Origin: an uncultured Clostridia bacterium
GTDB taxonomy: Bacteria; Bacillota; Clostridia; Christensenellales; UBA1242
Direction: 5' to 3'
Length of the DNA: 64,000 nucleotides
NCBI GenBank assembly: GCA_944383405.1
Contig: CALWPL010000005.1
Span: 1 to 64,000, forward strand
The notes under the pieces are model-generated. The model was not told the origin of the DNA. It did not search any database and saw nothing but the letters and a program-made list of their open reading frames with translations. This document shows, piece by piece, positions 24,444-58,472 of the stretch. Both the position numbers and the translations under genes were made by a program. Numbering within the stretch: the first letter of the stretch is position 1; each line of letters starts with the position of its first letter.

Positions 24444-24914
24444 ATGGATAACAATAAGGAGAATAATAAGCCAGAGTCTAATTTTAAAGAGACATCTAGT
24501 CTTAATACTACTTCGCAAAATACTTCGTCAACACCTGGCGGAGATTCTTTTGCCGATAAAAGTAGTCAAGACAACTTTACGCAAAAACCATCTGGTAGTT
24601 TTCGTGGAGTTCCTCCTATAAAAGGTGCTCCACCAATAAAAACGGATGCAACAAAAGGCTTCCAAGGAGTTCCTCCAATTAAAACCAACAATGTAAATCC
24701 AAGTAGTGTTGGCGGAAATTTGCAAAATATTTCAGAACAAAATATTGAAAAAGAAAAACAAGCGGATGAAAAACTTGCTCATTATGAACTAGCAAAAGAA
24801 AAAAAGCCACAATCTAAAAAAAGAAAAAACATTGCATTACTTATAGTCATTTTAGTATTTCTTGCTTGCGGTGGAATAGTGCTTGGAATTTTTCTTGCGC
24901 CAGATAGAGAATAT
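24444..24914 (+). other. giant protein: cytoplasmic PPIK tail and signal-anchor helix (residues 1-157)
   Basis: Asn/Ser/Lys-rich, disordered tail. FRGVPPIKGAPPIK and FQGVPPIK form a threefold proline-rich motif at residues 53-80. A short charged helix (SEQNIEKEKQADEKLAHYEL) and KKPQSKKRKN precede the hydrophobic IALLIVILVFLACGGIVLGI helix. Positive charges on the N-terminal side mean the tail stays inside; there is no signal-peptidase site of the usual A-x-A form followed by a processed domain. Confidence 0.8.
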
Positions 24915-27900
24915 ACTGTTACTTTTGTTGATTGGCCAGTTGAGATACCAGAGAAAACTGTAACAGAAGGGGCTATATTTACAGCACCAGTTCCACAAGA
25001 TATATACAGTAATGACGGGGTTTTATTATTGCATTTTGAAGGCTGGACTTATAAAGATGGGAGAGATTATGTTCCTTCTGCTTTAAGAAGTAATATTACA
25101 TTATACGCTAAGTATACGGCAACTGAGATTACAACAACTTTTGTTATCCCAAATGTTTATAGCCCTAATCTATCTCAATACATATATCTGACAGATGTAA
25201 CAACAGAGTATTATTCTGAAACAATAGACATTTCAAGTTTATTGGGTGAACTTGAGAATTTTACTTCAGATAAATATGACAATATTTCAAATGCGCTTGG
25301 GTTTAACATATCTACATCAGAAATAGTTGGGCAAATAAATGATGTAACAACTGCGTCTTTTTCACAATTTATAAAAAATTACTATAATTATGCAACATTT
25401 ACTATTCTAGGAGATGACCAAGTTTATTCAACGCAGGATGAGATTCCTACTCCAAGTGGAGATAGTATTGTTGTTATTGGAGTAGAGCCAAAACAGGTTG
25501 AAATACTTTTTAATTCTAATTTATTAAGCATAAAAGACGAATATGATTTTGCAAGTGGCGAATTTAATGAAGGAGATTTTGTTAACCAAGAAATATCTCA
25601 TAAAATAAATTATGGGGCAGATTATACTTTTCAGAATTATATTGAAGTGGGTAGTTGGTATGTTCCTAAGAATCATGAGTTTTTAGGCTGGTCATTAGTG
25701 CCACCAACACTTGATGAAGAAGGCACAATTAATCCTGCTTTTGGGACAACAAATACATATATATCTTATGGAGAAATAAGAAATATTAATAGAACTTTTT
25801 TAAGTAATAATACAAAAATTACTCTTTATGCCGTTTGGGACCAATACATGACAGACCTTAGAATATATACGGATTACAGTTCAACAGGGGGGCTAGTTGA
25901 AACTGAGGTGTCTGTAGGTGTTTCAAGACCAGTCGGAGAATGGGCTCAAAACTACATGGAACTTATAGAAAAAGATGGATACGCTTTAATTGGATTTAAT
26001 ACAGAGCCTGATTTAAGTGGGCTTACGCTAAGTTTAGATACTCCACTTGAAGGAGGAGTAGATTCTCCATATTACAATGCAGAACAAGGCTGCATTGTGC
26101 TTTATGCTGTTTATAGAAAAGAAGTTAATGAAACTTATATCGATATTAATGATGACGATTTAGATGTCGCAGAAATAGATTCTTCTTTACTTGAAGAGTT
26201 ACTCAGTATTGACCTTAATATTGACGAAGGATATGTTTACGATAATATTGACAATATTGAAATTCTTTTTGATGAGGCACTTAGAAGGATTACGATTACT
26301 AATCTTTTGGCGGGTGCAAGTATTTTCTTGCCAAGTTTTGATAGAAATCATTATACATTAATAAATTATACTCTTGGTTATGGGAGTCATAATTCAGGAA
26401 GTGAATACATAATTAACGAAACAGATATATCTTTTGATGCAAATATAGAATTAGATGCTGTTTGGGAAGGGGAAGATGTAAATTTTGTTATTCATGGGTA
26501 TATGGAAGGAGAGAATGAAGTTATAGAGTCTATAACTGTGCCTTATGGTTCATCAGTTGGACTTTCTTATAACAATGAGTTCGTGAATAATGAAACTCTA
26601 TTACATGGCGAATTTTATAATAGAGCAACTTCTCAAATGATAGCAAGTATAAACTTTAATAGAGTAGGATACTTGTTCTTATCATGGGTTGATAGTGAAG
26701 GGGTGGAAATTGATGATTCGACTTTGCAAGTTTTTACTATAAATAGCCTATTTAATGAAATTTATGCAAATTGGACTGAGTGTTTATATGATATTACATA
26801 TGTTTTAAATGGTGGTTCTTATGAGAATAGAGATGATGGGGCTTCGTCAATGGATTCGTATGTTGAAGAAGATGTCCCTTATGGAAGTGAAATTTCTTTA
26901 ATTTCAAGTGATATTGAAAGAGTGGGTTATTATCTTGAAGGATGGGCAACAGATGGAAATGTCGATGCACAGGTAATTTACGATTATGAGACTGAAAAAA
27001 TTGTAGTTGAAAACGAACTTACTCTTTATGCTGTTTGGACAAAGGCGTATAGCATAACTTTGTATCTTGACGGAGAAAGAAATGATGAAAGGGTGGTTTA
27101 TGTTGATAGGGATAATACTTTTGTTTTAACTGGTAAAGAATTTGGCGATGAGTACAACTTTTCAAGATATAACGCATCTGAAAGTGGAGATGCTTATGAA
27201 ATTGTAACAGGGGATAGCCGTCAAGAATATGTTTTCTCAGTTGATGTTCAACTTTATGCAATGTGGTTTGAAGTTTGCTTTGAAGAAGGCGATACAGATG
27301 GTATTTATCAGGTAGGAGGAAGTGCTCCAAGTAGTTTTTATGTTACAAATAAAACAAACTTTGCTTTGCCAAAAAATACATTTGAAGCGCACAAATATTA
27401 TAAATTTAATGGTTGGGATAGAAATGGGGAAACTTATACAACTTCTTATAGAGTAGATGAAGAAAGCCAAATTTCACAACTTGTATTTGATGCTACTTGG
27501 GGATATAAAGATGTTAGGGTTGAACTTTATTTTGACGATGTGGTAACTGGTGCATATGCCAGTGGAATGGCTGTTAACAATCAATTTGTTATAACTAAGG
27601 CAAATGGAAGATATCCGCAGCAAATTGGTAGAGAAATAGACTACATTTTTGATTATGATAGTGCAAGGTATATTAATGCTGAAACTGAAAATAATGAGAT
27701 TATACTTGATATTCCAAATCCAAATGACAACATGATTGAAGTAGAAGGGCAAGATTACTATATTTATAGGTTATATACTAAGTGGAAGTTAAATGTTACC
27801 TTTATTTCTACCGAAGGCACAACGCCAGCAAGTGCGTCATGGCATTTAGGTTCAACTTATACGGGAGATAATTCTCTTGATGTTCCACTTGAAGATATTA

Positions 27901-48900: not shown

Positions 48901-51900
48901 TTAATATTTATAATAATGTTGAGATTAAGAACAATGATGCTTCTCTTAGAATTTATGACCTAACAAGGCCTAACACCAATAAAAAAATCAGTATTAGTGA
49001 TGCTTATAATGGCGGAGCGATATATCTTGGTGGCGGAAGCATTGTAATGCATGGCGGTAGCATTTATAATAATAGTGCAAGAAATGGCGGGGCAATTTAT
49101 GTTTCAAGTGGTAGTCTTGATATTCGTGGTGGAAGCATAGGATTTGAAACAGAAAGTGGAATTCTTGGGAATACTGCTTTGCAAAATGGTGGTGGAATTT
49201 TTGTTGAAAGTGGGGCTGTAATTCTTGGAGAATCTCAAATTATTGGTAATAGTGCAGTAAATGGTGGTGGAGTTTATGTTTATAGACAAGGGACACTTGA
49301 AATAGAAAGAACGACAATTTCATCAAATACAGCAACTAATTCTGGTGGTGGACTTTATCTTGCTTCAACAAGAAGTGGGGAAAGTTACTTTATGACTGGT
49401 GGTGAAATTTCAAGAAATAGTGCAGTGAATGGTGGTGGTTTATATATTAGTGGTGGCACGATTATAATGGAGACTGATGCAAGTCAGATAAGCAACCTAT
49501 TTGACTTGAACTCAGCAAGTAAGAATGGTGGCGCAATTTATGTTGCAGATACTGGACTTATTAATATGAGTGGTGGCGTTTTAACTAATAATACGGCAAG
49601 TGAAAATGGTGGTGGAATTTATTATAGTAGCAACAATGTAAATCTTTCAAGTGGGATTACCGATTCAAGTATAGGTCTTCAAAACCATGGTAATAGTGCA
49701 GTAAATGGTGGTGGAATATATATTACAAGTGGAAATATTGTTATTACAGGACTTGATTTTTCATCAAATGAATTTAGTAGCGTTATTTCAGGAAATACTG
49801 CTTCTCAAAATGGTGGTGGGGTTTATGTTGGTGGAACAGGTGCTGTTAGCCTTATAAGAACGGGTATTTCAAATAATAATGCGGTTAATGGGGCTGGTAT
49901 ATATATAACATCAACTAGAAATATAGAGTTAGAAGGTAGTTTAGTTTCAGCAAATTCATCAAGCGGGAATGGTGGCGGAATTTATCAAGAAAATGGTAAT
50001 TTAATTATAACCACTACGGCGGATGAACAACTAGATGGTATAGAAGGAAACACTTCGCAAACAAATGGTGCTGGTTTATACATTGTTGGTGGATTTACTA
50101 GAATTGATTCTACACTTATTCAAAATAATAATAGTATTACTGGAACTGGTGCGGGGATATATGTTGGTGGTGGAGAAGTTGAAATAACTACAAGTAACAT
50201 CAGCAACAATACTATATCTGGCGAACAAAAGGATGGGCAAGGAATTTATTACAATGCTGGTAATCTTACTTTACTTGGCGAGAACATAATTCAAAATCCA
50301 ACAAGTCAAGAAGCAAGGTCAGGTAGTATTTTAATTCAAGGAGAAACTTCTCTTGAAGAATCCTTTACGATTTCTGGTTCAATTTCGTACATTTATGATG
50401 CAATATATTTGAAAGATAAAGGGTCATGGATTAATTCTTATGAAGGCGATGAGAGTGAAGTTGCAAGCAACATGGCATTTAGTCAGGGTTCAAATCCAGA
50501 TGCAACTATTTTGATAAAAGTTGACTCTGCAAAAGATGTTGGAGATAAAGTCGCAAAATTCAGTGCAAGTAGTATCTTAAGAAATGATTTAATTAGCATG
50601 TTTGAACTGGATATGAATAGTCAGAGAATGTTAGTACAAGGGACAGGAGACAATGCAGACTTTATTATTCTTCAATCGCAATTCTTCCAGTTAGTTGTTG
50701 GAAAGGAAGGAGAAGTTGGAGAAATTGTTGGTGTATTTACTTCTCTTACAGAACTTGTTGAAAATTTACATCTTTATAGTGATAGAGTTAGTGAGAGAGG
50801 TTATTTGGTTTTTGTAAACTTTAATAGCAGTGAAGATTCTTATGTTGTTAACTCGACTGTAAATAGTAATGTGTATGAAGAATACCTTAGTGGATTTTCA
50901 AAGAAGATAACGATTACTCCTAGGGCGGAAAATCAAATATTTACAAGAGAAGATGGGGCTAGTGATATTGCTATTTTCAATGTCTTTGAAGGAGATGAAG
51001 TTTATTTAGGCTTTAATAGTCAATTTAATGATTTTTATGAACAATTTAAAGTAAACAAAGATACTTCAAAGTTAATATTTGAAGGTAGTGAAAATAGCGC
51101 TTCATCTATTATTACAAACTTTGGGAAGTTAACTCTTGGAAAGGGCGTTGAAGTTAGAAACGAATTTATAACTAGCGAAGAAGGTGCTGTAAATAGTTAT
51201 GGAGAACTAGTTGTTGATGGTGCAGTTTTGCACAATAATGAAGGTATAAATGGTGGAGCAATTTATGTTGCAGATGGAACATTTAATATGTTGAGTGGGG
51301 AAATCTATGCAAACTATGCAATAAATGGTGGAGCAATATATATTTCGACAAATGTTGAAGCAACAATAAGCGGCGGAACTATTGGTAGACAAAATGAAGA
51401 AGGAAGTAGAGACGAACTTAGAAATATTGCAATCAATGGTGGAGCAATTTATGTTGCAGGTGGACTTCTTAACATTACTGGTGGCGACATATCCTTTAAC
51501 TACGCAAGTGAAATGGGTGGAGCAATTTATATTACTCCAAGCATGACTGTTACGGGAAGTGTCAGTGGCAGGGTTGTCATTTCAAGTAGTACTCTTCCAC
51601 AAGAAATGACATATATTTCAAATAACGAAGCAGGCGAAAATGGTGGTGCTATATATGTCGAAGATAATTTTATTGACCAAAATGTTTCTTTTGCAGATAG
51701 GTTAAAGACCCTAACTATTAATGGTGGAATAATAGACAATAACACAGCAATGTTTGGTGGTGGAATTTACGCAACAAATGTTAGGATAGAGGATAATGAA
51801 AAGTTCTACACAGGAGCAACTGAATTTGTTGATAGCGGAGTTTCAAGTTATGTTTATGGTGTTAGTATTGAGATAAATGGTGGTACTATTGACCGTAACT

Positions 51901-54900
51901 TTGTAGAATTTGACGCACAGATGCAAGACATAGGTCTTGGTGGCGGGATATTTATATATGGTGGCGAAATGCAGATGAATGGTGGAATAATTTCAGGCTC
52001 TGCAAATAGTTATATAGCGCTTAATGGTGGTGGAATTTACTTAAAAGATTCTGTTGTTACAATAAATGATGGTATTATTAGGAATAACGAAGTTGGGAAC
52101 AATGGCGGTGGAATTTATGTTGATAAGACTTCAACATTTACACTAAATGGAACTAGTTCAACTTTAATTTCAAATAACTACGCTTATGCAAATGGTGGTG
52201 GAATTTATCAAGAAAAAGGTAAGACCAATTTAGCAACTGGTGTTGATACCTATGAAGAAGTAACTGTTAGTGGAAAAGTTATACTCATTGGTGGGACAAT
52301 TACTGGCAATATAGTAGAGACTGGTGGAAAAGGACCTGGGGCTTATGTAAATACAGAAGCACATGATTTTGTACTTGGAGCGGGGATAGTAAATGGAGAA
52401 GTTTCGTTACTATCAGAAAATTTGGTTATTAATGATATTTTATATCTTGCAAATGATAGTTTAATTTATGTAAATGCAAAATATAATCCAGCGTATAATA
52501 CTCTTGATAGAAAGATACCTGTTGCTTGTGATTATACATCAGATACTTATACAAAACTAGATGGAGAAAGGGTTATAATTGCAAGATATACAAGTGCGAT
52601 TGATGAAGCAGATTCTGTTAGTATTGAAGCAAAACTCTTTACTGGTAAGGACAATGCACAACAAGATTACTGTTTTATAATTTATAATGGATATGATGTA
52701 GTTATAGGGAGAATGAATGTTGCAAAATACATTGAGGGTCAATCGGTTAGTTTCTTTGAAACTCTTGAAGATGCTCTTGAAAGTGTGAAGAACAACTTAA
52801 ATACTACAATATACATTTTAGTTGATGAACAGCAACAAGCATTTAGACTTACCATGGAGAAAAAGGTTACGCTTACAGGAGAAAAACACATTAGGGTAAC
52901 TTCTGGTAAATATGATAAAGAAACTGATACTTTAACTGAATATGGTGTTAATGAAAGATATCTAAGCGTATATATTGGTAATTATGGTGGCGGAGACATT
53001 ATAACGCTTCAAATGGATACTGGTTCACAATTAATGTTTGATAATATCAGAATTGTTGGAAATGATGATGCTGAAAATAAAGCAATAAATCTATTTAGAG
53101 TAAATAGTGGTAATTTAACACTTAAAAATGTAATTGTTGAAAAGAATGTAAGTAAATCAGATGGAACTCTTATAAATGTTTCAGGTGGTTCGGCTCACTT
53201 AATTGGTGATATTGTTTCAAGGGATGGAACCCAAGTTGAAGGAATGCTTGTAAGTCAAGGGGCTGCTCAACTTGGTATAATAAATGTAAGCAAAGGAGAG
53301 TTGCTTCTTAGTGGAGAGGGTGTTTTAATTACTCAAAATACGGTTGAAGCAGGTACTATTTATGTAACAGATGGAACAATAACAATAGAAAATGGTGCAA
53401 ATATAATGGGAAATATTGCAAGGTCAAATGGCGGAGGGGTTTATCTTACAGGTAAAAACAGCAATTTAATTGTTGACGGTGCAAATATTTCATCAAATAG
53501 TGCTCTAAATGGTGGCGGCTTATATATTGAAGATGGTGCTATTGAATTTTCAGGGGCAAACATTACTGATAACGAGGCTACAAATGGTGGTGGTATATAT
53601 ATTGATATTGAATTTGAAATGGATTTAGGTTATGATTCTAATTCATACATTTCAAGAAATATAGCAGAGTCTTATGGTGGCGGTATTTATGCAACGGCAG
53701 ATTTAACTATTGGAAGGGGCGTTATTGTTAGCGAAAACGAGGCATATTATGGTGGTGGTGTATCAGTAAGAGACGGAGATTTATTAGTAACAGGTGGGGC
53801 TCAAATTTCAAGCAATATTGCTATAAGTTCTGGTGCTGGGGTATATTCTACTAGTGGTAATATTACAATTGAAGAAGCAACAATTTCAAACAACTCAATG
53901 CCTGTTGATAGTACGGAAATGCTAGGTGGTGGTATTTATATTGCAGGCACTGATTCAAAACTTACTATTTTAGGGTTAGCAAATATTATAGGTAACTCGG
54001 CAATTTATGGTGGTGGAATTTATGTTGGACCTGGTGTAATATTTGAGATGAGTCAAGGAAATATTGGAGGGAACTCTGCGCTTGAAAATGGTGGTGGTAT
54101 TTACTTTATAGGAAAATCATTTACTATGACAGGCGGAAGTATTGCTGGTATGGCTCAGTCTGACTCAGAAGCAATTTCTGGGAATAGCGCTCTAAATGGT
54201 GGTGGTATTTATCTTGCTGGTGGGGTATTTGATATGTCTAATGGAAACATTGGAGCGCAAGGATATGGAAACACTGCAACAAATGGTGCTGGAATTTATG
54301 TAAATGGGGCACAGATAACTCTTGAAGGCAATGGTGTAATAGAAGGAAATATTGCAGATGGTGGTAATGGTGGTGGTGTGTTTATTGACAAAACAGATTC
54401 TGGAGTTAATCAAATAATTGGCAACTTCCAAATTGTTTCAAATGAGGCAACAAATGGTGGTGGTTTATATATAACAAACGGAGCGTTTACTATTTCTGGT
54501 GGAAATATTGGTGTTAAGGGCAAACCTAACAAAGCAGTAAATGGTGGTGGAATATACGCAAATGGTGGAAGACTTGAAATTGAAAATGGAAATATTTCAT
54601 ATAACGAAGCGACAAGCGCTGGTGGTGGAATGTATATTAATATGTGTGGTGTTATTAGCAAAGACGCTAATAATGAAGTCAGTGCATTGGTAGACTTTAT
54701 TAGCGGGGATATTGCTTATAACAGAGCGGATTCTGGAACGGCGCCTGATTCTGTTGAGGCAAAGGCAAATGGTGGTGGTATTTATCTTGCAGGAAATGAG
54801 TATACGAGTTCTGCCAGCGGTGTGTTAAATATTAATTCGCAGGCTGTAATATATGGAAATTATGCAGATGGCAATGGTGGTGGTATTTATAACAGTGGAA

Positions 54901-57900
54901 GAATTATTATGGAAGGTGGAAAAATTGGTAAGACTTCTAACAATGATAATGATAAGAACATAGCGATTGGAAGCGGTGGTGGGCTCTATGTTAATAATGG
55001 TTACCTTTATTTAGTTGGAACTGGAAAATCAAATGGAACTTCAATTATAAACAATCAAGCAACAAATGGCGGCGGTATTTATATTGAAAATGTTGCAGAT
55101 AGAGATGAAGGTGTCGCAGGCGAACCATCGGTAATTGCTAATGTTGTATTTACAGATAATAGTGCTGTAAATGGTGGTGCTTTATATTATGTAAGTGGAA
55201 ATTTACTTTTCTATAATAATATTGTTCAAAAAAATACAGCCACTTCAACAAAAGTAACAACACCTGAAGGAGAACAAATAACAGGTGGTGGTGGCGGTGG
55301 ACTTTACTTATCTTCTCCAACTGGCAAAAATGTTTCAGAAGAAGTAAAAAATGCTAAGTTTACAATTGAAGGCGGAACATTTGGCGGAAGTGAAAGTAAA
55401 TATGCAAATACTGCTCAAAATGGTGGAGCAATTTATGCAGAGACAGGAAACTTCACTATTAAAGGTGGAGAGATATCAGAGATTCTTGACATTAATGAAG
55501 AGAAATTAACATTTGAAAGAACTGCTGCTAATTTACTAATTTCGTATAATGAAGCAACAAATGGTGGCGGAATTTATGTTGAAGGTGTAATTGACACAAA
55601 TGCTTGTATTGTAGAAATAACTGGAACTTTGAGTGATTCTGGTAAGTATGGAGTTGTAATAACGAAGAATACGGCAAAGGAAAATGGTGGCGGAATTTAT
55701 AATTTAAGTGGTATTGTTAATTTAGAAAAGGCACAAATTATAACTAATTCTGCTGGTGGAGATGGTGGTGGAATATATTCCGTATCAGGTGGAGACTCAT
55801 CAAATTCTGAAAGTTTAGGTTTTAAACTCATTAGCGGTGAAATTTATAAAAATAAAGCGGCAAATGGTGGCGGTATAGCAACTGGCGGAGTAAATCTTGA
55901 TGGGGTTATTTATGCTGGAAGAACTCAGATACAAGCAAATATTTATGAAAATGAAGCACTACTTAAAAGTTCAACTTCATTAAATGATAGTACAGGTAAT
56001 GGTGGTGGAGTATATGTTATGGGATCTCCTGATATATCTGGCAGTATGGTTACAATTACACCAAATGATGGAAGTATATCAGAAACTGGTACAAAGATTG
56101 AAGAAACTTCTATTCATGATAATAGTGCAACACGAGGTGGTGGTCTTTACATGGCGGGTGGTTATGTAACGCTTAATATGAATATTTTAAATAATACTGC
56201 TGATCAAGGAAATGAAAGAGGCGGTGGAGGTGGAGCGTATATTATTGGTGGGACACTCAATCATGAAAGCAGTTCAATAATGAATAATAAGGCAAGAAAT
56301 GGTGGTGGAATTTATGTTAATGGTGGTACATATGCTTCTTCTACTCCAAATGGTTGTGTTCAATATAATGAAGCGTCAAATAATGGTGGTGGTATTTACT
56401 TTGGTAGTGGCGAATTAGCATTTAATGGAACTGTTACTAGAAATGTGGCAAAAAATGGTGGTGGACTTTATATAGCAAGTTCTCAAAATGAATCAAATTT
56501 AAGAATTGGTGGAATGATAGGTGAAATTGCACCACTTACAAGAGATCCTTATCAAAATGGCAAAGAAGGATTTACTGGTAATCGTGCACAAGAAAATGGT
56601 GGTGGTGTTTATATTGAAGGTGGAAATTATACGCTATCTGTTGATATAGTTGGGAATTCAGCATATAATGGTGGTGGACTTTATATAGAAGGTGGACAAA
56701 TAACCTTTGGCAAGGAAGACAATACAAGTTTCACACCAGTTATTGCTAGAAATGCGGCTACCTTAAATGGTGGTGGAATATATGTGGGTGGTGGTGCATC
56801 TTTAGATATTATTAATGGAACAATTGTTGGAAGCGATAAACCAAGTAATGAATTTAATGAGTTTATTGTAAGTCTTGGATTAGCAAGTGAAAGCGGTTCT
56901 AGTGATGATGAAAGTTCTTCAACTGAAAATTCTGATGACTCAGAAAAACTAGGCTCTAATATTGCGACATTTGGTGGTGGAATATATGTTGCTGGAATGG
57001 GAAAACTTGAAGATGATAATGATACTAGAACACAAGTTCAGATAATAGCAGCAAGTATTGGTTTTAACATTGCAACAAAGCAAGGAAGTAGTAAAGGCGG
57101 TTTAGGCGGTGGCTTGTATTCTGATAGTAAGAGTGGAGAAAGCGTTATTGGACTTAGTTTAAACACTACAGTTAATCGTAACATTGCTGGGTCAATGGGT
57201 GGTGGCGCATATCTTGATGGAACATGGTTATATCTTTCAGATACTGCTAGTATTGTTGAAAATACATGTTGTGAAACTAAGAGTGGGGGAGGTCTAACTT
57301 ATGTTCAAGGCTTGGCAGGATCACCTGATATTTCTGGTGTTAAACCTTATATTCATGAAGTTTACATGATAGATGGTGGTTTGGAATTACTTGATAGTTC
57401 TCAACTTGGTGTAAATCATAATATTATTGATAGAAATGTAGAAGGAAGTGTTGGAGAAAATAATGTTTATGCATTAAGCCTTTATTGGGATCTTGGAAGT
57501 GCAGATGTAGACTTTGACGCAGTTTTAGGAAATAAAATAATAACTAGTGAAGACGGAGGGCAAAGTGAAACAAGAGCGTCATCAGGTATTGAAGGAGATG
57601 TTTTTGTTGATACATCAGGGACGGTTAAATTAAATACTCAAAAATTTTTAAATTCAAAACAGTTAACTATGGATTGGTTTAATGGTTTACCTTATGAGTT
57701 CTTTAGTTTTTGGCAGAAATACCATGGGCGTCAAAATTTAGATGTTACATTTTTACCAATTCCTAATGCTAGTGGAAAACTTGAAAATGACGATACTATT
57801 TATTTAAATAACTCGTCAAATAGATTTAGTGCAGAAGATAATTTTTCTTATAATGTTACTAATTTACATTATGATTATGAAGTATTTGTAGGCAATAGTG

Positions 57901-58472
57901 TTACTTATACGCCTTATGGCTCAGATATGGCAAGTATGATGGAGCAAATTAATCAAGGTATAGCAGGAATTGCGGAATCTTTGGGGATGGATCCACAACA
58001 GATGATGGCTTTATTTGAAACTATTGTTGAAAGTAGTTCAGGAGCAGATATTGAAATAGGTAGTGGTTATTTAGATTCAGTAGTATCTGGCTTGGGTCTT
58101 GTGAAAGATGTTGTAGCAATAATACTTTATTTCTGTACTGGTAAAGTAGATATTGTAATGCTTAGTTATGTACTAGATATTGTTGATTTTATTAAAAGAG
58201 TTCCAGTAGTTGGTGGCTTAATTGGTGGTATCTTAGGCTTATTCATGGATTTACAATTTGCAATTCCTTTCCAAGGAGTTTCACTTTCAACATGGAAATC
58301 ATGGAGAGATATTCATCATCTTAATAGTAAAGAAATTTTAACTACATTTACTAGTGCTTTAAGAAATGCTACTTCGTTTATTACAAGTTTCTTTGGACCT
58401 CTTGTAGGACTAATTGCAAACTGGGGAATGGATATCATTTTGTCAGGATTTGAATATACTCTTCCAAGTTAA
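24444..58472 (+). CDS. giant repeat surface protein, 11,342 residues (InlB-type repeats, beta-helices, BspA LRR)
   Basis: One uninterrupted frame of 34,029 bases; about 1.2 MDa by length. The N-terminal 128 residues are polar, with three PPIK units (57-60, 63-66, 77-80) and a basic KKPQSKKRKN flank, then one membrane helix (about 130-152): a signal anchor that puts the remainder outside. Order of the exterior: InlB/Flg_new repeats 158-3278; beta-helix 3279-4129; InlB 4130-4565; beta-helix 4566-5307; InlB 5308-5596; beta-helix 5597-6103; InlB 6104-6852; BspA-type leucine-rich repeats 6853-7284; beta-helices 7285-11068; unique C-terminus to 11342 with three hydrophobic stretches. No LPXTG, SLH or enzymatic domain was recognised. 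Such repeats occur in adhesins, so a role in attachment or as a cell-surface scaffold is inferred. AAGGAGG precedes the ATG; a terminator follows. The gene appears monocistronic. Confidence 0.95.
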   Translation: MDNNKENNKPESNFKETSSLNTTSQNTSSTPGGDSFADKSSQDNFTQKPSGSFRGVPPIKGAPPIKTDATKGFQGVPPIKTNNVNPSSVGGNLQNISEQNIEKEKQADEKLAHYELAKEKKPQSKKRKNIALLIVILVFLACGGIVLGIFLAPDREYTVTFVDWPVEIPEKTVTEGAIFTAPVPQDIYSNDGVLLLHFEGWTYKDGRDYVPSALRSNITLYAKYTATEITTTFVIPNVYSPNLSQYIYLTDVTTEYYSETIDISSLLGELENFTSDKYDNISNALGFNISTSEIVGQINDVTTASFSQFIKNYYNYATFTILGDDQVYSTQDEIPTPSGDSIVVIGVEPKQVEILFNSNLLSIKDEYDFASGEFNEGDFVNQEISHKINYGADYTFQNYIEVGSWYVPKNHEFLGWSLVPPTLDEEGTINPAFGTTNTYISYGEIRNINRTFLSNNTKITLYAVWDQYMTDLRIYTDYSSTGGLVETEVSVGVSRPVGEWAQNYMELIEKDGYALIGFNTEPDLSGLTLSLDTPLEGGVDSPYYNAEQGCIVLYAVYRKEVNETYIDINDDDLDVAEIDSSLLEELLSIDLNIDEGYVYDNIDNIEILFDEALRRITITNLLAGASIFLPSFDRNHYTLINYTLGYGSHNSGSEYIINETDISFDANIELDAVWEGEDVNFVIHGYMEGENEVIESITVPYGSSVGLSYNNEFVNNETLLHGEFYNRATSQMIASINFNRVGYLFLSWVDSEGVEIDDSTLQVFTINSLFNEIYANWTECLYDITYVLNGGSYENRDDGASSMDSYVEEDVPYGSEISLISSDIERVGYYLEGWATDGNVDAQVIYDYETEKIVVENELTLYAVWTKAYSITLYLDGERNDERVVYVDRDNTFVLTGKEFGDEYNFSRYNASESGDAYEIVTGDSRQEYVFSVDVQLYAMWFEVCFEEGDTDGIYQVGGSAPSSFYVTNKTNFALPKNTFEAHKYYKFNGWDRNGETYTTSYRVDEESQISQLVFDATWGYKDVRVELYFDDVVTGAYASGMAVNNQFVITKANGRYPQQIGREIDYIFDYDSARYINAETENNEIILDIPNPNDNMIEVEGQDYYIYRLYTKWKLNVTFISTEGTTPASASWHLGSTYTGDNSLDVPLEDISSEYSLVMPNGEDDLGFYVDRRTFSHWNNEVLGDSQVGDTVVLTDDITFNAVWEGTKYSIRVIDEENVNSTKVVENIEYGETYSIAELIGLDQETFRSKYEDTVANYYKQIANIYYYYRIGEQIYQREFELDDSLVFATVEGGEIGGFIAEDDITDDDTTHKTPDEIILNIRWEEVVYDVRINLNGGNWDALSGENYFDYGAELYRDENNEYYFVYKVRYSVIRDGGNGLNIAYLGLNRSGYRLDGFSVNEDENISIVDGRGYVYTFSGTAGEYDELYGQETISQIDASWQEILTIGFNTNGGTSTEEISNLIVDVVYDEVVGVDIAKFNIPEIDLRRENCTLVGFYYTNNSDELKAKSTYTFSDRYILNNDFLFSVGEEVIITREIIDTYGSTTNSSLTMYAIWKTNIVFNNTLVNEEVAGYYTPNSPEMIESSENTFTIEFYCGIELSLTELNGYYFDLKNTDVYSPNGWRYGSQDINQLVVDGGIQLDSIWLENSVRIYMKNYNGSDFGSNPIYFESSNGEQVDLNSEYKTLMQSSIMPSLYGYNFIGWSTSVDGNLISINDESVIVYDSENLYTVPNVVSTVYAVYERCEVRVVYDKNSSDAVGEEVTVSGLEFGNTYLLRTDIDYTLTYFNLDGFATTSDAVVPISDSNIIFDNSLTYETRNEEGVIVYTLRLYAVWSRQTKEVRINLQGGSFYNSGVEENLEAFFDPTKDNRIQSYVLNSTNIVLRVFIGLGDEFGFNLPSEEYLAREGFVFDYYTLGEGTLEYEGGQFIRCDNTQPYVFDIHWLEIITIQIYSNMSEDDENYISFDVVYEDLITFDPANKTIYNYSAENEEDAEIVLDFSRNHYYIEAFTSNESGGAEYVYGTNYNVNDGAFIILDSAIKIYCQWKGVDISLTFDANDNAQDPENSTITQIENAFSYGETIKLSDFFSVSERVDGDIGYEFSHLVDEFGNEYQLDANADFNPETSNLEFRTNYTFNAVWAPREYSVIYNFGSGYYITEEGSREKTVTLIYKYGDKVDLLEVTNENSIHEEDSYEGRTYPLYEFDSFTSEDVEVLDGTFTMPNFNIEFMASWVSKDISIIIDSTGGIIGDVVGEPSYSGEIGDNPNGYNLSFEGVNNTNLVVSNLKVGDVVELETLPSPYNLGFSYSYNYLVNYTGEGEFDATVNGFQTFGASDEFELNTDRINSSTLNLNELWNEERQAFVLYFTVVWSTNSYIVSYSMTKPLIENGYSVNASSNITNVDSISQAMVYGEESTLAGPMTLNGWTQTGWSLEVNLNNQTDENTFLFSDGVAETPQIYNFITEDSIVTLYPIWEQNEYDIIISDNLNTDNIIGPSGASSSITVKFTYDESSTIQELLDRNQITINSYTFKDVYLRYAGFKYEGQTLGVMEFNTDDELVFCLAPQGFIDGEDFSANSIELQIVWEEVAFGIHFNLLGGKSEYNSSGLLSNFDNETGYYTLEGEVLYSDLKQGFYIDEYFDAQEDAISFDDEDISYTLAGWSLNNYDMYCLKGELFSLDLGTNEQIESILAPNEDGEFDYIFEFYAIYNDRLVIIDANGGSVNLNIGSEITASDGQVWIADEYEIYTYSYSDAEIVISTNLYDPFVLSNYHIDLDIEDETHTVNRTSDESNILYAPWVGNRRYVVVDSRMNNTLQVGSGFKSTIITDNNVYYGYVEISSEEASTQSDVYVYSYNSSTDVGEFIPYDAGGTYSEDTHFYQKVNNRALLIETRFGEEIDDLSLITIDGITSNFSGWGDDFGVYSDEGTLLLVQGQNDEIIYLYAHIDEVIVTYNLNGGLYNNLDNIEITDGNDADGDDILDPYGIARPKNDDGRYYVYLPGKRVNGYDRGPLKWGYTFLGWSNTYIDYNAYIEAVEKGETTAESLIVPSDENNVRNIYYLQGVQNETLYAIWEPITTTFTFISKSSANDPDAESGPNSINVVVTAQYGDTILFPVKGDGSENGTIIDNWTNSDQNMVFTGWRIDFPNGESQSRTLSQGQEYVLTQERDFSPYGSAPTEITVYSIWKRANVTVKLYVGQGSTRDYAYFGPESQEGFETDNYGVYMKTISTLGGTYVIPELDDFYLKNMYASGVYFDNTYGYPVVADYIVIRQDDVVDGVLSLYIKWDNAQSFIRNFYGNYNKYFGSLETALLAAARISTSEDLDRYEQRIKDKGSVEVVIINTANRFNLSQEVVIGENFNFAVSLDEESVSVSKTIQRSSSYQGVIFSVGLGSSLSFNALNSYKLYLDGGNISAQSFIKANGATININSGVDISNMFNNGSLIEENKTAGAIWVQNGRVNVTGSIISDNRIVTNGTHNVYGAFLYANNSNVYINACQFENNTIQGAGSLFGGAVAVENGGEIVITNTNFLNNKAQSTGVNGTTGGYGGAVYVGGGQNLTLNSTFDYTFSTNWADFGGAIAVVGSQSKQSQVSLVYPYANYNYAIKGGAFYFEYADIIVETISLLGNGSTAPTESITSSNQEISEYGGGIYAGQKTNLVLTIELDDITEDNEISDSFGFSDIMNNRGRLGGVIYTEGLSLIVHAYSFTGNGTNIADIEEMGGVIYAKGFADSEGNINDINKVEIYVSDFSLNNADYGGVMYVGDGASIKLTTLESLIEEIEKKIAEGETISTDVYDSVSGNMEYNSALKGGAIYFDSTTTDSLIEYTAIDFNMKNTDGESSDYGGGIYIANGQVTLGERGIIYKNSAIYGAGAYVGAEEVSGLEEGQENPVAKLIVDGGAFVYELIQYPSSLVTEYNNYVAKIEELEKQLEEDPDNAELQKELEDAIAHREDVMQQILDFEIVSQDGNYGYNGGAVYVGKYGYVDFASGRIAGTQMFGEQLGEFVYNEGTVRYGYVNSEQNVVNGVGYQIYNTGSFDIYGTGEMVSRPRVYIDKTEDGEAYDYLLVSNLNYNISNTIEIVLPTDSYIHDIPIVKFASQEAYDNYLTLMETREAPLFELSDSTITLDTDDDQLALVLHFKSYEIRFRDISNDNITVPNPLTFTYKEINKDTIIDEINAYTVIRDGYRFAGWAFYVETTPEGPSTSRNSIAIEYKGTDNFEISTVINQEVAGQTFYSIDKLPELIPEVLPAHNVYLYAVWEPKPYTIKYKYDTNYGGYTNVEEYTINGHPVTDENLLGLSQLAYYTNSVILRNVADINKVELVAYEPLTTVVRDSSGVPTSVTTERLNTTYTNIAYEEGTGRYYYTANDTYKYYIESDTSSFRVLNVDENGFIYESNEPSEQIYPKQVIVGGVTYDVENNNGQRIVLINGTTYSLRSAYRPDNYEVSHIEINGSNYYDLGDAFQILNSNPFAICFEEPYEIYFTIYFKRMSVDINFVVDSEDETGENNFTIERYVGAEITLPTGSIVRYDDIEHLIYKEGSVLKGFVDETGKEYSLGERYIVSETTTGAHTLTAVWESAVCYVEGVVRTDTGVVNKYYSSLEDAINDINLDNFDVGKSEYSLWIIDTNGTPNTEEIIITLNETLVINSNITISTQGDSAVRFVYSEEFNSSNPMIRVESKILTIGSNNGPQIIFDGTRNASLSSIFIVDVSGQINIGNRAVITQGKISTTSSASTLGGAMTIYGIVNINGCSEDTIMFTNNQSVNGGAIYIANGGLLTVKAQKESGSLFAKNNAILGGAIYVAKGGNLDIVSNAQSSLIISDNSAKDGGAIYLELGVGSVILENVTFSGNIATNGGAIYAVGDFMIKSGLTFISNSAETSGGAIYTDANLSVSGGTFSSNSANMGGAIYSGSYIYVSGGTFDANDVSAGYGGAIYAVGELSIDGEVVISNNKGNFGGAICVDSCVAVISGSVIISNNIALRGGAIYVRNESSLSITDNAEISNNTANSQGSSAESGTTIITGGGAVYLDSSRLYLNGYLTNNTSVNGGAIYAAGASSIILDGVSEITNNTARENGGAIFITGSSSLQIQAEDVLISENSAGVFGGGIYYSSSVNSVLEYGLVADNSINSNSNMTSYNGTEIYLANSATDTSTNSLSITLSGVIIGNYDSSLVENTYAVYVGTRSILYVTDTSEINGEVYTKGLDKNRASMGIVLSGSAFVRDIFLNQYAYAVVEGTLTSTRLTTNGKKINLHFSYYNEDDPNKTPNDTKMVRFNNIDSLNLNKDYFNLVKDIAELTDYCLQITTESSFAWLVIMEIAQVIYINPNGGTIEFEGVTVSGDTSLEIVNLPQRGSLAFLDEIVGHKIGYAMLDTFVDRDSNVIYTSDSELPIYVLTLLVQWTSKDYDVKFIRNGDNGTTTEQTSLKYEAYTRLGTASLTYNTFAGWELAYMENDELVYTGIIFNANTNFSLMSINDENLVSSVTGETGSQIFEKIDGGDNTVYLVSSFTPIEVEILVHGNGGVAIDSTVDSRYEKIQIDEDTWMYTCAQSELYVDYNDFVEDFEYQDHAVDGLFTGTDGVYDEGFDVMYDEINSSINISNVTRLELYCHWKNVVAYIRKDATNEDNERRIYFDDLVEAVNALVTGDDLVIVASNIYLTNTLNFDVDVDVYVRGNVTIHRQNGFYDFLITISSDVNILPENDESSLTIDGNGSAGVATNGSIRVASSGNLVLESGITIQNAFSKENGAGIFADGSLVINGAVIQNNRTMSNGGGIYATGGLQINEGTIISNNTADGFGGGIYIGSGLFNIVKSTISENNAKYGGGVYYASNLAGEISGGQIINNSTSNGEQYFGGGIYIALNSGALVLSEGVAITGNTSGYGGGVFIVGNNDGNSDYNLLIENAVISGNTAVYGGGIGIGDTAYNYNKHVIRMLDGMITNNTATYGGGVSIFRGTFELRGGSISSNIATSGSNMFISSVSSNFYGVASIIGGVIGNATEDSGDIYVNAKNSTIGGKLQLSGFYEIYSHVKVANGAKINVVGVISSDTPSIIIEPVATSSMGEISNYPTGNNLLVVVNFENLIAVQQDKFDLIEDVKNQGVNSYRLKTIEQDIVITSALFTLTIDPMDGVLSSDGEIEYTTDNDLWLTEVYYTSSVYEALSHVTASIENRYFMGFYTYVDEEKVYIDEDFTMPYDDLTVYVEWSNDYYVLTINFNDTRSLSGTQARFNIAGADLTAGEIYDEENRQISLEVFVDGDGTSYGAQAINRIAGLLTRNNYTILGFSPSQLVDGNNEIYGQDGNEFLMPEGDITLYVLWLGNPYTVTYNSNRPSRQNAEQIQIEYTFDELINVGDEDTFDTPGYNLIGWSLSSNSQEVEYEVGESTYNLIDDNNQGISLYAVWEAIEYVVHYDSNMQGRVVEGEIEDDIFVYGVEKSLSSKSFTTIGYTQVGWSLDPNCDSDSTDNYYSFEDNLIAINLTTEDEVTIYAVWAQNTYYVNLHESGVEGSLIVSTVSVLYDSQDTSLPLATQVFGNSNSYYFAGWSLTPYADSDDAQIDFEDGQVLYNLVESGEIDLYPVWIARKVIIYANNNTEDAVTINAQTNGNIVISKEELSSLVTYPGFEIGDLSTNAQVALGTRYNFDNYGVITISAEANQENEIILYIAWRARQYTFNFVVDNEQYDALSSQIKSAKVSGGNAYTNFTDDNRIYAYDDILEGVEFYGWSVDSECSTLDFELGSYNELTSDVFEKFMMYQDVTSSTLTLYAVLSQTYQITYNLNNNSHNVIFGSTTNITGENSVTTDVIDINTPVQLAFSDYQGNVWEIADIDSSNPSSLYAYFLGWAFDSNAEIPDFVEGQEVGLQFSGNITLYAVWGYYTNPFYFEYVSQGEGVAISGLSQLGLTNLSESAHVVFPRHTLKVSNNTYSMGEQIVGIMSSTQEINNITSVDLAYMDNLQTISEFAFANYSNLTSISSVPQQAEIGGGAFSGVSIESVEFESGEQDRYLLDEKGNIYLVSGMSASLHTILVKNSSESIVIGENVQLGSASYAVSEILSYALYNTTFNNVEVTEDVSKISENALGGVNGLSNLVVPFIGTQNDVTSSQTLATMIGDDLIQSLRVVTVTNQTVVLVGAFSGQEYIEEVYYTSGITLINNDAFNGCVSLSMLKGVGEEDFDMSLCTQIGSRAFYGCTSLPTSINFTVTTSIGNEAFSNTNITKVSLSREIESLGTSENREMYTAFKNATNLTEAYVYSTYAFEAVINNTNIKGGDEVNGTIYTDVNFYLVLNNLTDNLLKEKYFSYNIVVYDRVEVFEGNQSVGVYNTLEEAVINAQAGQRILIKADTQITQQIAIDKDISIYAGFSVVDEDDDAYEYAQNREDVYVSVSDALKNTPVFIISSSNVNFGGSFIGDMYSENYLDGNLNIFANNSRSASMIVSTNSNITFGEKMRIYDFKTSSDAQVNGSVAQLLGNTTLTSIGANIRDNSATNGGVFYVDDSELIINSGIINNNSAVNGGVAYVTKQGRVYIEQTNQVSITDNSASMYGGVLYVDTTILDENYAVHIGSSTISNNSANQGGAIYILDGIVSVNSEDANIISNSAATHGGGVYVRGGILSVRSGNIGSVDGANKAVSGGGVYVGLQGIIRLLGQNASISYNTATNGANIYFASQIDTNGLISELSAGIISYGNNGQDVQNKFGGGIYQESGILYLKDSIIISNNSAEYGGGIYLANGVLSIKNTASNSEEASGFGVLQNQASVGGGLYLANGEATISGSDIRQNTASENGGGIYINGGNLRIENTRTCLSNVSENTSQNGAGIYIDKKGAVTISSSNISSNTASMSQEGNDGNGGGIYLQSGSLTLRTAQITNNVAGQNGGGLYIPNAQTNISFTMYEDTTISQNSAVNGGGIYVDRALDISQGLISANTATLGGQIFVGKNAVLTLDKVEITTQNNDIENYTLGVYLEQGGVANAFSITNYTNIHRADTYVYLSQGSIVYVIDRFTADYQVKLYIEEAVAGKKVKVAQFARNDYASAGKFYARYTAFTKETNSIYAVEATVIASLNKEITGNDESEVNYATLKEAVELCQNNSYLRLIGNQEITSTLAVSVPEGKTVTIITDGEQIITRGTEVNGSVYNGYLITVFGTLLLNDEESDNNLLVIDGKKAQNSSSLIYVGDSGRLNIYNNVEIKNNDASLRIYDLTRPNTNKKISISDAYNGGAIYLGGGSIVMHGGSIYNNSARNGGAIYVSSGSLDIRGGSIGFETESGILGNTALQNGGGIFVESGAVILGESQIIGNSAVNGGGVYVYRQGTLEIERTTISSNTATNSGGGLYLASTRSGESYFMTGGEISRNSAVNGGGLYISGGTIIMETDASQISNLFDLNSASKNGGAIYVADTGLINMSGGVLTNNTASENGGGIYYSSNNVNLSSGITDSSIGLQNHGNSAVNGGGIYITSGNIVITGLDFSSNEFSSVISGNTASQNGGGVYVGGTGAVSLIRTGISNNNAVNGAGIYITSTRNIELEGSLVSANSSSGNGGGIYQENGNLIITTTADEQLDGIEGNTSQTNGAGLYIVGGFTRIDSTLIQNNNSITGTGAGIYVGGGEVEITTSNISNNTISGEQKDGQGIYYNAGNLTLLGENIIQNPTSQEARSGSILIQGETSLEESFTISGSISYIYDAIYLKDKGSWINSYEGDESEVASNMAFSQGSNPDATILIKVDSAKDVGDKVAKFSASSILRNDLISMFELDMNSQRMLVQGTGDNADFIILQSQFFQLVVGKEGEVGEIVGVFTSLTELVENLHLYSDRVSERGYLVFVNFNSSEDSYVVNSTVNSNVYEEYLSGFSKKITITPRAENQIFTREDGASDIAIFNVFEGDEVYLGFNSQFNDFYEQFKVNKDTSKLIFEGSENSASSIITNFGKLTLGKGVEVRNEFITSEEGAVNSYGELVVDGAVLHNNEGINGGAIYVADGTFNMLSGEIYANYAINGGAIYISTNVEATISGGTIGRQNEEGSRDELRNIAINGGAIYVAGGLLNITGGDISFNYASEMGGAIYITPSMTVTGSVSGRVVISSSTLPQEMTYISNNEAGENGGAIYVEDNFIDQNVSFADRLKTLTINGGIIDNNTAMFGGGIYATNVRIEDNEKFYTGATEFVDSGVSSYVYGVSIEINGGTIDRNFVEFDAQMQDIGLGGGIFIYGGEMQMNGGIISGSANSYIALNGGGIYLKDSVVTINDGIIRNNEVGNNGGGIYVDKTSTFTLNGTSSTLISNNYAYANGGGIYQEKGKTNLATGVDTYEEVTVSGKVILIGGTITGNIVETGGKGPGAYVNTEAHDFVLGAGIVNGEVSLLSENLVINDILYLANDSLIYVNAKYNPAYNTLDRKIPVACDYTSDTYTKLDGERVIIARYTSAIDEADSVSIEAKLFTGKDNAQQDYCFIIYNGYDVVIGRMNVAKYIEGQSVSFFETLEDALESVKNNLNTTIYILVDEQQQAFRLTMEKKVTLTGEKHIRVTSGKYDKETDTLTEYGVNERYLSVYIGNYGGGDIITLQMDTGSQLMFDNIRIVGNDDAENKAINLFRVNSGNLTLKNVIVEKNVSKSDGTLINVSGGSAHLIGDIVSRDGTQVEGMLVSQGAAQLGIINVSKGELLLSGEGVLITQNTVEAGTIYVTDGTITIENGANIMGNIARSNGGGVYLTGKNSNLIVDGANISSNSALNGGGLYIEDGAIEFSGANITDNEATNGGGIYIDIEFEMDLGYDSNSYISRNIAESYGGGIYATADLTIGRGVIVSENEAYYGGGVSVRDGDLLVTGGAQISSNIAISSGAGVYSTSGNITIEEATISNNSMPVDSTEMLGGGIYIAGTDSKLTILGLANIIGNSAIYGGGIYVGPGVIFEMSQGNIGGNSALENGGGIYFIGKSFTMTGGSIAGMAQSDSEAISGNSALNGGGIYLAGGVFDMSNGNIGAQGYGNTATNGAGIYVNGAQITLEGNGVIEGNIADGGNGGGVFIDKTDSGVNQIIGNFQIVSNEATNGGGLYITNGAFTISGGNIGVKGKPNKAVNGGGIYANGGRLEIENGNISYNEATSAGGGMYINMCGVISKDANNEVSALVDFISGDIAYNRADSGTAPDSVEAKANGGGIYLAGNEYTSSASGVLNINSQAVIYGNYADGNGGGIYNSGRIIMEGGKIGKTSNNDNDKNIAIGSGGGLYVNNGYLYLVGTGKSNGTSIINNQATNGGGIYIENVADRDEGVAGEPSVIANVVFTDNSAVNGGALYYVSGNLLFYNNIVQKNTATSTKVTTPEGEQITGGGGGGLYLSSPTGKNVSEEVKNAKFTIEGGTFGGSESKYANTAQNGGAIYAETGNFTIKGGEISEILDINEEKLTFERTAANLLISYNEATNGGGIYVEGVIDTNACIVEITGTLSDSGKYGVVITKNTAKENGGGIYNLSGIVNLEKAQIITNSAGGDGGGIYSVSGGDSSNSESLGFKLISGEIYKNKAANGGGIATGGVNLDGVIYAGRTQIQANIYENEALLKSSTSLNDSTGNGGGVYVMGSPDISGSMVTITPNDGSISETGTKIEETSIHDNSATRGGGLYMAGGYVTLNMNILNNTADQGNERGGGGGAYIIGGTLNHESSSIMNNKARNGGGIYVNGGTYASSTPNGCVQYNEASNNGGGIYFGSGELAFNGTVTRNVAKNGGGLYIASSQNESNLRIGGMIGEIAPLTRDPYQNGKEGFTGNRAQENGGGVYIEGGNYTLSVDIVGNSAYNGGGLYIEGGQITFGKEDNTSFTPVIARNAATLNGGGIYVGGGASLDIINGTIVGSDKPSNEFNEFIVSLGLASESGSSDDESSSTENSDDSEKLGSNIATFGGGIYVAGMGKLEDDNDTRTQVQIIAASIGFNIATKQGSSKGGLGGGLYSDSKSGESVIGLSLNTTVNRNIAGSMGGGAYLDGTWLYLSDTASIVENTCCETKSGGGLTYVQGLAGSPDISGVKPYIHEVYMIDGGLELLDSSQLGVNHNIIDRNVEGSVGENNVYALSLYWDLGSADVDFDAVLGNKIITSEDGGQSETRASSGIEGDVFVDTSGTVKLNTQKFLNSKQLTMDWFNGLPYEFFSFWQKYHGRQNLDVTFLPIPNASGKLENDDTIYLNNSSNRFSAEDNFSYNVTNLHYDYEVFVGNSVTYTPYGSDMASMMEQINQGIAGIAESLGMDPQQMMALFETIVESSSGADIEIGSGYLDSVVSGLGLVKDVVAIILYFCTGKVDIVMLSYVLDIVDFIKRVPVVGGLIGGILGLFMDLQFAIPFQGVSLSTWKSWRDIHHLNSKEILTTFTSALRNATSFITSFFGPLVGLIANWGMDIILSGFEYTLPS
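24915..34277 (+). repeat. giant protein: InlB/Flg_new-type repeat block A (residues 158-3278)
   Basis: About 29 repeats by my count of the closing motif L-[YDN]-[AS]-x-W (LYAVW, FNAVW, IYANW, FMASW and variants), roughly 90-120 residues each. Within units, GY...GW or GF...GW blocks and NGG or LNGG starts are frequent, as in Listeria-Bacteroides (PF09479) repeats. The repeats are strongly diverged from one another. Confidence 0.82.
34278..36830 (+). repeat. giant protein: beta-helix cassette 1 (residues 3279-4129)
   Basis: Header YFGSLETALLAAAR, then GG[AG][IVF]Y-type turns with N-rich ladders (for example GGAVYVGGG, GGGIYIANG), then a closing segment around VYIDKTEDGEAYDYLLVSN. Two charged helical inserts interrupt it (about 35734-35790 and 36159-36300). 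Confidence 0.8.
36831..38138 (+). repeat. giant protein: InlB-type block B (residues 4130-4565)
   Basis: About three repeats, including GYRFAGWAFYVETTPEG, LYAVWEPKPYTIKYKYD and TLTAVWESA. It contains unusually long spacers, so the units are less regular than in block A. Confidence 0.75.
38139..40364 (+). repeat. giant protein: beta-helix cassette 2 (residues 4566-5307)
   Basis: Header YYSSLEDAINDIN, then IIFDGTRNASLSSIFIVD, about a dozen GGAIY turns and a closing segment FVRDIFLNQYAYAVVEG, ending with a KDYFNLVKDIAEL stretch. Confidence 0.82.
40365..41231 (+). repeat. giant protein: InlB-type block C (residues 5308-5596)
   Basis: About three repeats starting VIYINPNGGTIEF and ending LELYCHW, with the intermediate LLVQWTSKDYDV. 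Confidence 0.75.
41232..42752 (+). repeat. giant protein: beta-helix cassette 3 (residues 5597-6103)
   Basis: Header IYFDDLVEAVNALVTGDDLV, then SSLTIDGNGSAGVATNGSI, about eight GG[AG][IV][YF] turns, and a closing segment KLQLSGFYEIYSHVKVANG ending near KFDLIEDVKNQG. Confidence 0.82.
42753..44999 (+). repeat. giant protein: InlB-type block D (residues 6104-6852)
   Basis: About eight repeats, from FTLTIDPMDG to LYAVWGYY. The middle units (LYVLWLGNPYTVTYNSN, LYAVWEAIEYVVHYDSN, IYAVWAQNTYYVNLHES) are about 70-90 residues, the size normal for PF09479. Confidence 0.85.
45000..46295 (+). repeat. giant protein: BspA-type leucine-rich repeat block (residues 6853-7284)
   Basis: LRR_5-like units with the typical I-x-x-x-A-F-x-x-C/N-x-x-L pattern: ISEFAFANYSNLTSI, EIGGGAFSGVSIESVEF, INNDAFNGCVSLSML, IGSRAFYGCTSLPTSI and IGNEAFSNTNITKVSL. 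It ends with an YVYSTYAFEAVI stretch before the next header. Confidence 0.82.
46296..48530 (+). repeat. giant protein: beta-helix cassette 4 (residues 7285-8029)
   Basis: Header YNTLEEAVINAQAGQRILI, then a DGNLNIFANNSRSASMIV segment, more than a dozen NGG[GA][IVL]Y turns and a closing segment TYVYLSQGSIVYVIDRF. It follows the leucine-rich block. Confidence 0.84.
48531..50681 (+). repeat. giant protein: beta-helix cassette 5 (residues 8030-8746)
   Basis: Header NYATLKEAVELCQNNSYLRL, then LVIDGKKAQNSSSLIYVGDS, GGGIY turns, and a closing segment AIYLKDKGSWINSY ending near FELDMNSQRMLVQG. DNA units within it and cassette 4 are nearly identical in places. Confidence 0.84.
50682..52691 (+). repeat. 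giant protein: beta-helix cassette 6 (residues 8747-9416)
   Basis: Header VFTSLTELVENLHLYSD, then KLIFEGSENSASSIITNFG, GGAIYV turns and the closing segment ILYLANDSLIYVNAKYN followed by KIPVACDYTSDTYTK. Confidence 0.83.
52692..57647 (+). repeat. giant protein: beta-helix cassette 7, the longest (residues 9417-11068)
   Basis: Header FFETLEDALESVKNNLNTTI, then about 40 GGG[IL]Y turns with inserts of varying length between them, for instance an Asp/Ser-rich loop near 56880-56950. It ends with the VFVDTSGTVKLNTQKF closing segment. Confidence 0.84.
57648..58472 (+). other. giant protein: unique hydrophobic C-terminal region (residues 11069-11342)
   Basis: Aromatic-rich start (MDWFNGLPYEFFSFWQKYHG), a helical part (MEQINQGIAGIAESLGMDPQ) and three hydrophobic stretches at about 11213-11233, 11254-11276 and 11312-11336, the second Gly-rich (VVGGLIGGILGLFM). 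There is no LPXTG or other sorting motif. It may be a membrane-associating or folding-cap domain; no family recognised. Confidence 0.6.

Follow-up and report, generated by a model that had tools for sequence, protein, structure and literature searches.

A two-locus family of giant, N-terminally anchored proteins of near-constant length in uncultured Clostridia, with a putative role in attachment

Introduction

Bacterial proteins of more than 10,000 residues are already known, for example Ebh and giants of Chlorobium and Omnitrophota. An earlier survey (cited in PMC11573180) described giant bacterial genes as specific to strains and deviating in composition. The Staphylococcus giants Ebh and Embp (about 1–1.1 MDa) are displayed on the cell surface and influence adhesion (PMC6548404, PMC7587433). 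They are built from F/FG-type alpha-helical bundles, carry their secretion signal at the N-terminus and have a transmembrane/cytoplasmic anchor at the opposite end. In Lactobacillus kunkeei, several giant paralogues make up several per cent of a small genome; they form a tandem array, contain Ebh-like segments and reach about 25 kb, and positional orthologues are more alike than co-resident copies, the duplication predating the strains (PMC4494060). Adhesin-like proteins of gut methanogens (PMC11532034) mostly combine an N-terminal membrane anchor with right-handed beta-helices and small repeat domains of the archaeal Big type, and the largest in M. smithii has 4,691 aa. Beta-helix coils of the GGA[ILV] / FxxN type (Pfam Chlam_PMP) characterize the chlamydial Pmp proteins, which are autotransporters with a C-terminal outer-membrane barrel, while LRR_5 and Flg_new (InlB B-repeat) domains occur in internalin/BspA-type leucine-rich repeat (LRR) proteins. 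Giant ORFs with a suspected attachment role have also been found in the reduced genomes of Omnitrophota/Velamenicoccus (PMC10066038); those of Velamenicoccia were reported to be poorly conserved, and the best-studied one has 42 membrane helices.

Here, we analyzed a stretch of 64,000 nucleotides (contig CALWPL010000005.1; hereafter "the window") from the draft genome of an uncultured Clostridia bacterium (1.33 Mb, 20 contigs, 98% complete), for which a gut source is inferred from its affiliation and bin names. More than half of the window is taken up by one giant gene. Its product resembles Ebh and Embp in size class, Gram-positive host, long repeat stalk, and the use of a membrane-spanning anchor instead of a sortase signal, but differs in its N-terminal anchor, beta-rich stalk and non-interchangeable repeats. 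No F/FG helical-bundle domain was found by Pfam in its segments, which contain beta-type domains instead, and its C-terminus is hydrophobic in places without a clear single anchor and basic tail. The family shares with the L. kunkeei giants the occurrence of paralogues in a small genome, the greater likeness of positional orthologues, an old duplication and a share of several per cent of the genome, but occupies two separate loci and has an InlB-type/beta-helix/LRR make-up. The overall build is that of the methanogen proteins, with InlB-type instead of Big domains. In contrast to the Pmp proteins, no Pfam match to an autotransporter barrel was obtained at the C-terminus, and in contrast to internalin/BspA-type proteins the LRR cover only about 430 of 11,342 aa and no LPXTG or wall-binding module was found. 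Unlike the Velamenicoccia ORFs, the family is conserved end to end and has one clear anchor. Paralogous giants in a small Firmicute genome (L. kunkeei) and the combination of anchor and beta-helices (methanogens) were already known, whereas the domain combination, the genus-wide conservation of length and order, the two-locus arrangement and a private upstream element are new. A paper on this family was not found in the open-licence PMC literature searched.

Results and discussion

An intact giant gene

The gene and its expression signals are as follows.

24444..58472, + strand: giant gene, 11,342 aa, 1,231 kDa (1.23 MDa), pI 4.1, net charge about −911
24429..24435, + strand: Shine-Dalgarno sequence AAGGAGG (from sequence), ending 8 bases 5' of the ATG
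58514..58554, + strand: Rho-independent terminator-like hairpin with T tract (0.0 expected in shuffles)

An earlier note had claimed an intact 34-kb frame of 11,342 residues with a near-consensus AAGGAGG site and its own terminator, and all of these claims held. The frame starts with ATG, runs through 11,342 uninterrupted codons and has a single stop at its end, and the window contains no N. GC content at each codon position shows no trend over the gene, with about 0.12–0.20 at the third position in each 500-aa block. No Rfam RNA family matched inside the gene, and introns or RNA elements within it were rejected as none were found. A chance open frame of such a length can be excluded, and orthologues at 27–46% identity keep the frame open. 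The same note had raised the doubt that a frameshift or a merger of separate genes could underlie the frame. This was refuted by assemblies of other species, in which a corresponding 11,000-codon frame is likewise uninterrupted over its full extent and which, judging by contig names, stem from different projects and assemblers.

Elsewhere in the window, a tandem array of the 12-base unit AAATGACACTAT (8.5 copies, positions 5669–5773) lies where clear genes are few.

A genus-wide family of conserved length and order

A profile of the first 900 residues matched all 12 genomes of the GTDB genus and one genome of a neighbouring genus (g58). The search for relatives, which the earlier note had proposed together with structure prediction by segment, thus revealed a genus-wide family, often with two copies at fixed loci; the family, its conserved length and part order, and the upstream element described below go beyond that note. 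The seven complete giants have 11,342, 11,466, 11,188, 11,268, 11,173, 11,677 and 10,902 aa (CV 2.2%), and five more are cut by contig ends at 7,820–10,740 aa. Five of the six other complete proteins aligned with the window's giant by BLAST in single alignments of 11,400–11,900 columns at 27–37% identity, and the one from genome G003 in two nearly abutting alignments at 40–44% identity. When the protein was divided into 150-aa segments, 69 of the 73 matched segments hit the G003 protein best at the colinear position (38–68 in the other proteins compared), and therefore the repeats are individually distinct and not interchangeable. The number of GGA[IV]-type motifs was also stable (103–113 in all seven complete genes; 113 in the window's giant), and net charge ranged from −478 to −911.

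Purifying selection acts over the whole length of the gene, since identity at second codon positions was 0.60–0.72 in each 500-aa block as opposed to 0.39 at 4-fold sites (chance 0.34), which are near saturation. The C-terminus was the least conserved part in comparison to G003 (33%, against 39–52% elsewhere).

No relatives outside genera g1 and g58 were detected among 309 genomes of the family, 396 of the order and 391 of the class, the latter two sets being samples. A distribution beyond two genera was rejected, as the order and class samples yielded only short single-domain matches (~110 aa at E 1e-8 to 1e-11) or none at 1e-12. A 12,137-codon frame in genome G139 of the same bacterial family (genus g56; G139:C5:7909-44322, L059–L061) was considered as a distant relative and rejected because of its different build: it opens with a signal-peptide-like segment, carries InlB/Flg_new-type repeats where it was read, and is anchored in the membrane at its C-terminus. 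Within this bacterial family, giant surface proteins appear to have more than one origin.

Architecture of the encoded chain

Block boundaries were set by eye from motifs and are accurate to some tens of residues. All features are on the + strand.

24444..24818, +: N-terminal cytoplasmic tail (predicted), aa 1–125, low complexity, three PPIK repeats (GVPPIK/GAPPIK/GVPPIK)
24837..24893, +: transmembrane anchor, aa 132–150, sole strong transmembrane segment, following KSKKRK; position conserved
24903..34268, +: InlB/Flg_new-type repeat region 1, aa 154–3275, Pfam Flg_new, about 38 repeat-end motifs
34269..36623, +: Pmp-like beta-helix 1, aa 3276–4060, 13 GGA[IV]-type motifs, helix cap FGSLETALL
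36624..38153, +: InlB-type region 2, aa 4061–4570, by sequence pattern
38154..40313, +: beta-helix 2, aa 4571–5290, Chlam_PMP 1.5e-27, cap YSSLEDAIN
40314..41243, +: InlB-type region 3, aa 5291–5600, within the AlphaFold model of aa 5290–6095
41244..42713, +: beta-helix 3, aa 5601–6090, same model, weak beta-helix fold matches
42714..45023, +: InlB-type region 4, aa 6091–6860, Flg_new 3.1e-05, below cut-off
45024..46313, +: BspA-type leucine-rich repeats, aa 6861–7290, LRR_5 1.1e-23
46314..57503, +: beta-helix blocks 4–7, aa 7291–11020, Chlam_PMP and Beta_helix, about 79 GGA[IV]-type motifs
57504..58469, +: C-terminal domain, aa 11021–11342, hydrophobic in places, fastest-evolving, homologous only within copy type A

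The claim of a signal-anchored chain with InlB-type repeats, Pmp-like beta-helices and BspA LRR held for the anchor and for all three domain types. Best Pfam scores were 1.5e-27 for Chlam_PMP, 1.9e-12 for Beta_helix and 1.1e-23 for LRR_5; Flg_new exceeded the cut-off in one piece and remained below it in others, Big_5 gave a single sub-threshold match, and POMP_repeat was matched in NCBIfam. No full-length family exists in Pfam or NCBIfam, and the statement that the protein matches no characterised adhesin thus holds for the libraries searched. A recognisable cap motif (e.g. YSSLEDAI) opens six of the seven beta-helix blocks.

The PPIK-type tail is shared with G003, and elsewhere different N/P/Q-rich tails take its place. 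In the homologues aligned, positive residues lie on the inner side of the anchor, and no signal cleavage site was seen at the anchor. Lipoprotein anchoring was rejected, as there is no conserved lipobox cysteine at the end of the signal segment; Cys142 is common to the nearest orthologues and missing in G006, G009 and more distant homologues. The window's giant contains no LPxT[GAS] motif, and no sortase was detected in its 98% complete genome with a model that was positive in the Bacillus, Corynebacterium and Lactococcus controls. Hence, the N-terminal anchor itself must hold the protein, being the only evident attachment; no other wall-binding module was found in the giant by Pfam.

AlphaFold modelling of aa 5290–6095 with 12 sequences gave a confident structure (pLDDT 87.8) of all-beta domains followed by a beta-helix. 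Foldseek returned only weak matches for this model (best E 5.9e-3), which were of two consistent kinds: ubiquitin-like/bacterial adhesin repeat domains, and right-handed beta-helices including 9cdv, pertactin, Ag43 and PL6 lyases. The model of the C-terminal domain was unusable (pLDDT 34.7) and was discarded. For this domain a profile search of the PDB gave chance-level matches only, and database searches gave no convincing match. The earlier claim that the C-terminus is unique failed in part, because diverged homologues (20–29% identity) exist in orthologues; none was found in the second-copy type.

Two copies at two loci

The conserved neighbours of the window's giant are as follows.

16282..23563, mixed strands: upstream neighbours at locus 1, DUF1015 (+), Tex (+) and two ABC exporters (−)
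58639..61167, + strand: downstream neighbours, Fe-alcohol dehydrogenase (Fe-ADH) and MscS channel

A tree of the N-terminal regions separated type A (G000_C5, G003, G008_C45, G001_C9, G006, G009_C10) from type B (G000_C9, G001_C1, G008_C53, G009_C39), and four genomes each contain one giant of either type. Type A genes are located between Tex/ABC exporters and Fe-ADH/MscS. In G000 and G001, type B follows a BipA-like GTPase gene and its neighbours, the BipA name being taken from the sequence without a family search. The second giant in the window's genome starts at C9:19095; only 7,820 aa of it are present before the contig ends. Only one giant was seen in G003 and in G006, both draft assemblies. 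The C-terminus differs between types A and B. Genomes are about 1–1.4 Mb in size, and two giant copies take up to about 6% of the DNA (in G004).

G004 has one giant at each locus, with long branches, and the tree joins both copies together, so that the duplication history in this genome remains unsettled. An assignment of its C7 copy to type A by the C-terminus was rejected, as the gene order around it is that of locus 2 and neither type has a matching C-terminus. This end (G004:C7, L048) is Cys-rich and, in contrast to those of the other giants, resembles a zinc finger of the DnaJ type (CxxCGGTG...CxxCEGTG); it had no significant BLAST match among the giants' C-termini. The copy at the type A locus (G004:C3, L049) has a C-terminus that matches that of the type B giant G001_C1 (29% identity, 1.6e-11). 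Ends may have been exchanged between copies.

The neighbourhood of the window's giant contains nothing that points to adhesion, in agreement with the claim that no neighbour has a related function. A pair of ABC exporter half-transporters (window 19917–23563), divergent from the giant, is retained beside it in the type A loci examined.

A private upstream element

A near-identical sequence precedes the start of nearly all aligned giants.

24399..24434, + strand: giant-specific upstream element AATATTTT-N14-ATAATACTAAGGAG, putative promoter and/or leader; most of the Shine-Dalgarno sequence lies within it

The pattern AATATTTT-N6-24-ATAATACTAAGGAG had 11 matches in 12 whole genomes, each directly 5' of a giant gene and all with a spacer of 14–15 (element length 36–37 bp), and the reversed control pattern had zero. 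The exact 15-mer ATAATACTAAGGAGG occurred 10 times, exclusively before giant genes; when up to two mismatches were allowed, the remaining matches were near background. As the pattern was derived from the giant genes themselves, their recovery was expected, and the result is its absence elsewhere. We infer that such a spacing is compatible with a promoter in which the −10 region and the ribosome-binding site overlap.

In G001, the right half of the element recurs with one mismatch at three sites away from the giants (C11:18369, C15:12872 and C26:53351), each time as ATAATACTAAGGTGG. These copies could represent a repeated element or a small regulon.

Proposed function

Our preferred reading, which we hold with moderate confidence, is a membrane-anchored stalk of fixed length that presents a variable tip for attachment. 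One gene would give rise to a single surface fibre of 1.2 MDa, with the N-terminal tail in the cytoplasm, the uncleaved signal-anchor in the membrane and about 11,190 residues outside the cell. InlB-type domains and beta-helix rods would form a long stalk, which by a rough estimate may measure 0.3–0.4 micrometre if extended, and its length and part order would be under selection. The likely tip is the C-terminal domain, which would lie farthest from the cell and changes fastest; it would bind a partner surface, either host mucus or epithelium or another microbe. Two stalks with different tips, encoded at two loci behind the same promoter/leader element, may be displayed together.

The gene, the family, the anchor, the fold classes, the fixed length and colinearity, the two loci, the private element and the C-terminal divergence are shown by the data, whereas export, extension, tip binding and attachment are inferred. 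A surface location is supported by domain types typical of extracellular proteins and by the confident beta-domain/beta-helix model. The adhesin role put forward in the earlier note is still an inference only, as expression, proteomic and binding evidence is lacking and the ligand is unknown. Stalk and tip is the simplest reading because the C-terminus would be outermost, evolves fastest and differs between the two copy types. However, its divergence might also reflect relaxed constraint.

Alternative readings

The giants could instead form a coat or shield, in which dense, strongly acidic proteins envelop the cell and keep phages, host antibodies or other surfaces from reaching it, without binding anything. 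This is supported by the high negative charge of all seven complete proteins, −911 in the window's giant, by the size-dependent blocking of other adhesins by the S. aureus Ebh of about 1.1 MDa (PMC6548404), and by the fixed length, which would suit a coat of set thickness. Yet a pure shield needs neither distinct, order-conserved beta-helix blocks nor a copy-specific C-terminus, and the colinearity is position-specific. We consider this reading unlikely.

A cell-to-cell tether or ruler, in which paired giants hold the cell at a set distance from partner or sister cells, also appears improbable. Such a system would fit the presence of two giants that are nearly equal in length, occupy two fixed loci and share the private upstream element. 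It would also fit the reduced genomes. UBA1242, a family of Christensenellales with reduced genomes of about 1 Mb, is thought to be partner-dependent (PMC12306168). On the other hand, some genomes (G003, G006) have a single copy, although these are drafts. Moreover, glucose-6-phosphate isomerase in 9 of 12 genomes and relatives of the ATPase beta-subunit (below the F-type cut-off) in 10 of 12 indicate that reduction has gone less far in the genus than described for UBA1242, and the partner-dependent lifestyle reported for that family was not adopted here. In its boldest and likewise doubtful form, this reading would have two genes under their own promoter element encode fibres of fixed length, and these fibres would determine at what distance and with what specificity the reduced-genome cell contacts a partner cell. 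If true, such a ruler-tether would be unlike the length-variable, strain-specific giant adhesins known.

That the beta-helices act on or bind glycans, as do helices of the pectate-lyase and alginate-lyase type, is very unlikely. PL6 alginate lyases, dextranase and polygalacturonase were matched weakly by fold, which speaks for it, but the similarity is confined to the helix fold that these proteins share (best E overall 5.9e-3, with identities of 8–17%), and no catalytic family was matched in the giant by Pfam. Also remote is a cleavage of the single chain outside the cell into several working pieces, for which the alternation of module blocks and the frequent processing of large Pmp-type proteins could be cited, but no processing site was identified and no protease adjoins the gene.

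Implications

Relatives keep the giant end to end at a nearly fixed length and behind a private start-site signal, and hence its size and the order of its parts very probably matter. The family is the reverse of the strain-specific, compositionally deviating giant genes described before: deep divergence has left it complete and of one length, and genomes often carry two copies. Because of this constancy, the question why the protein is so long becomes testable by comparison, and the private upstream element offers a handle on its regulation.
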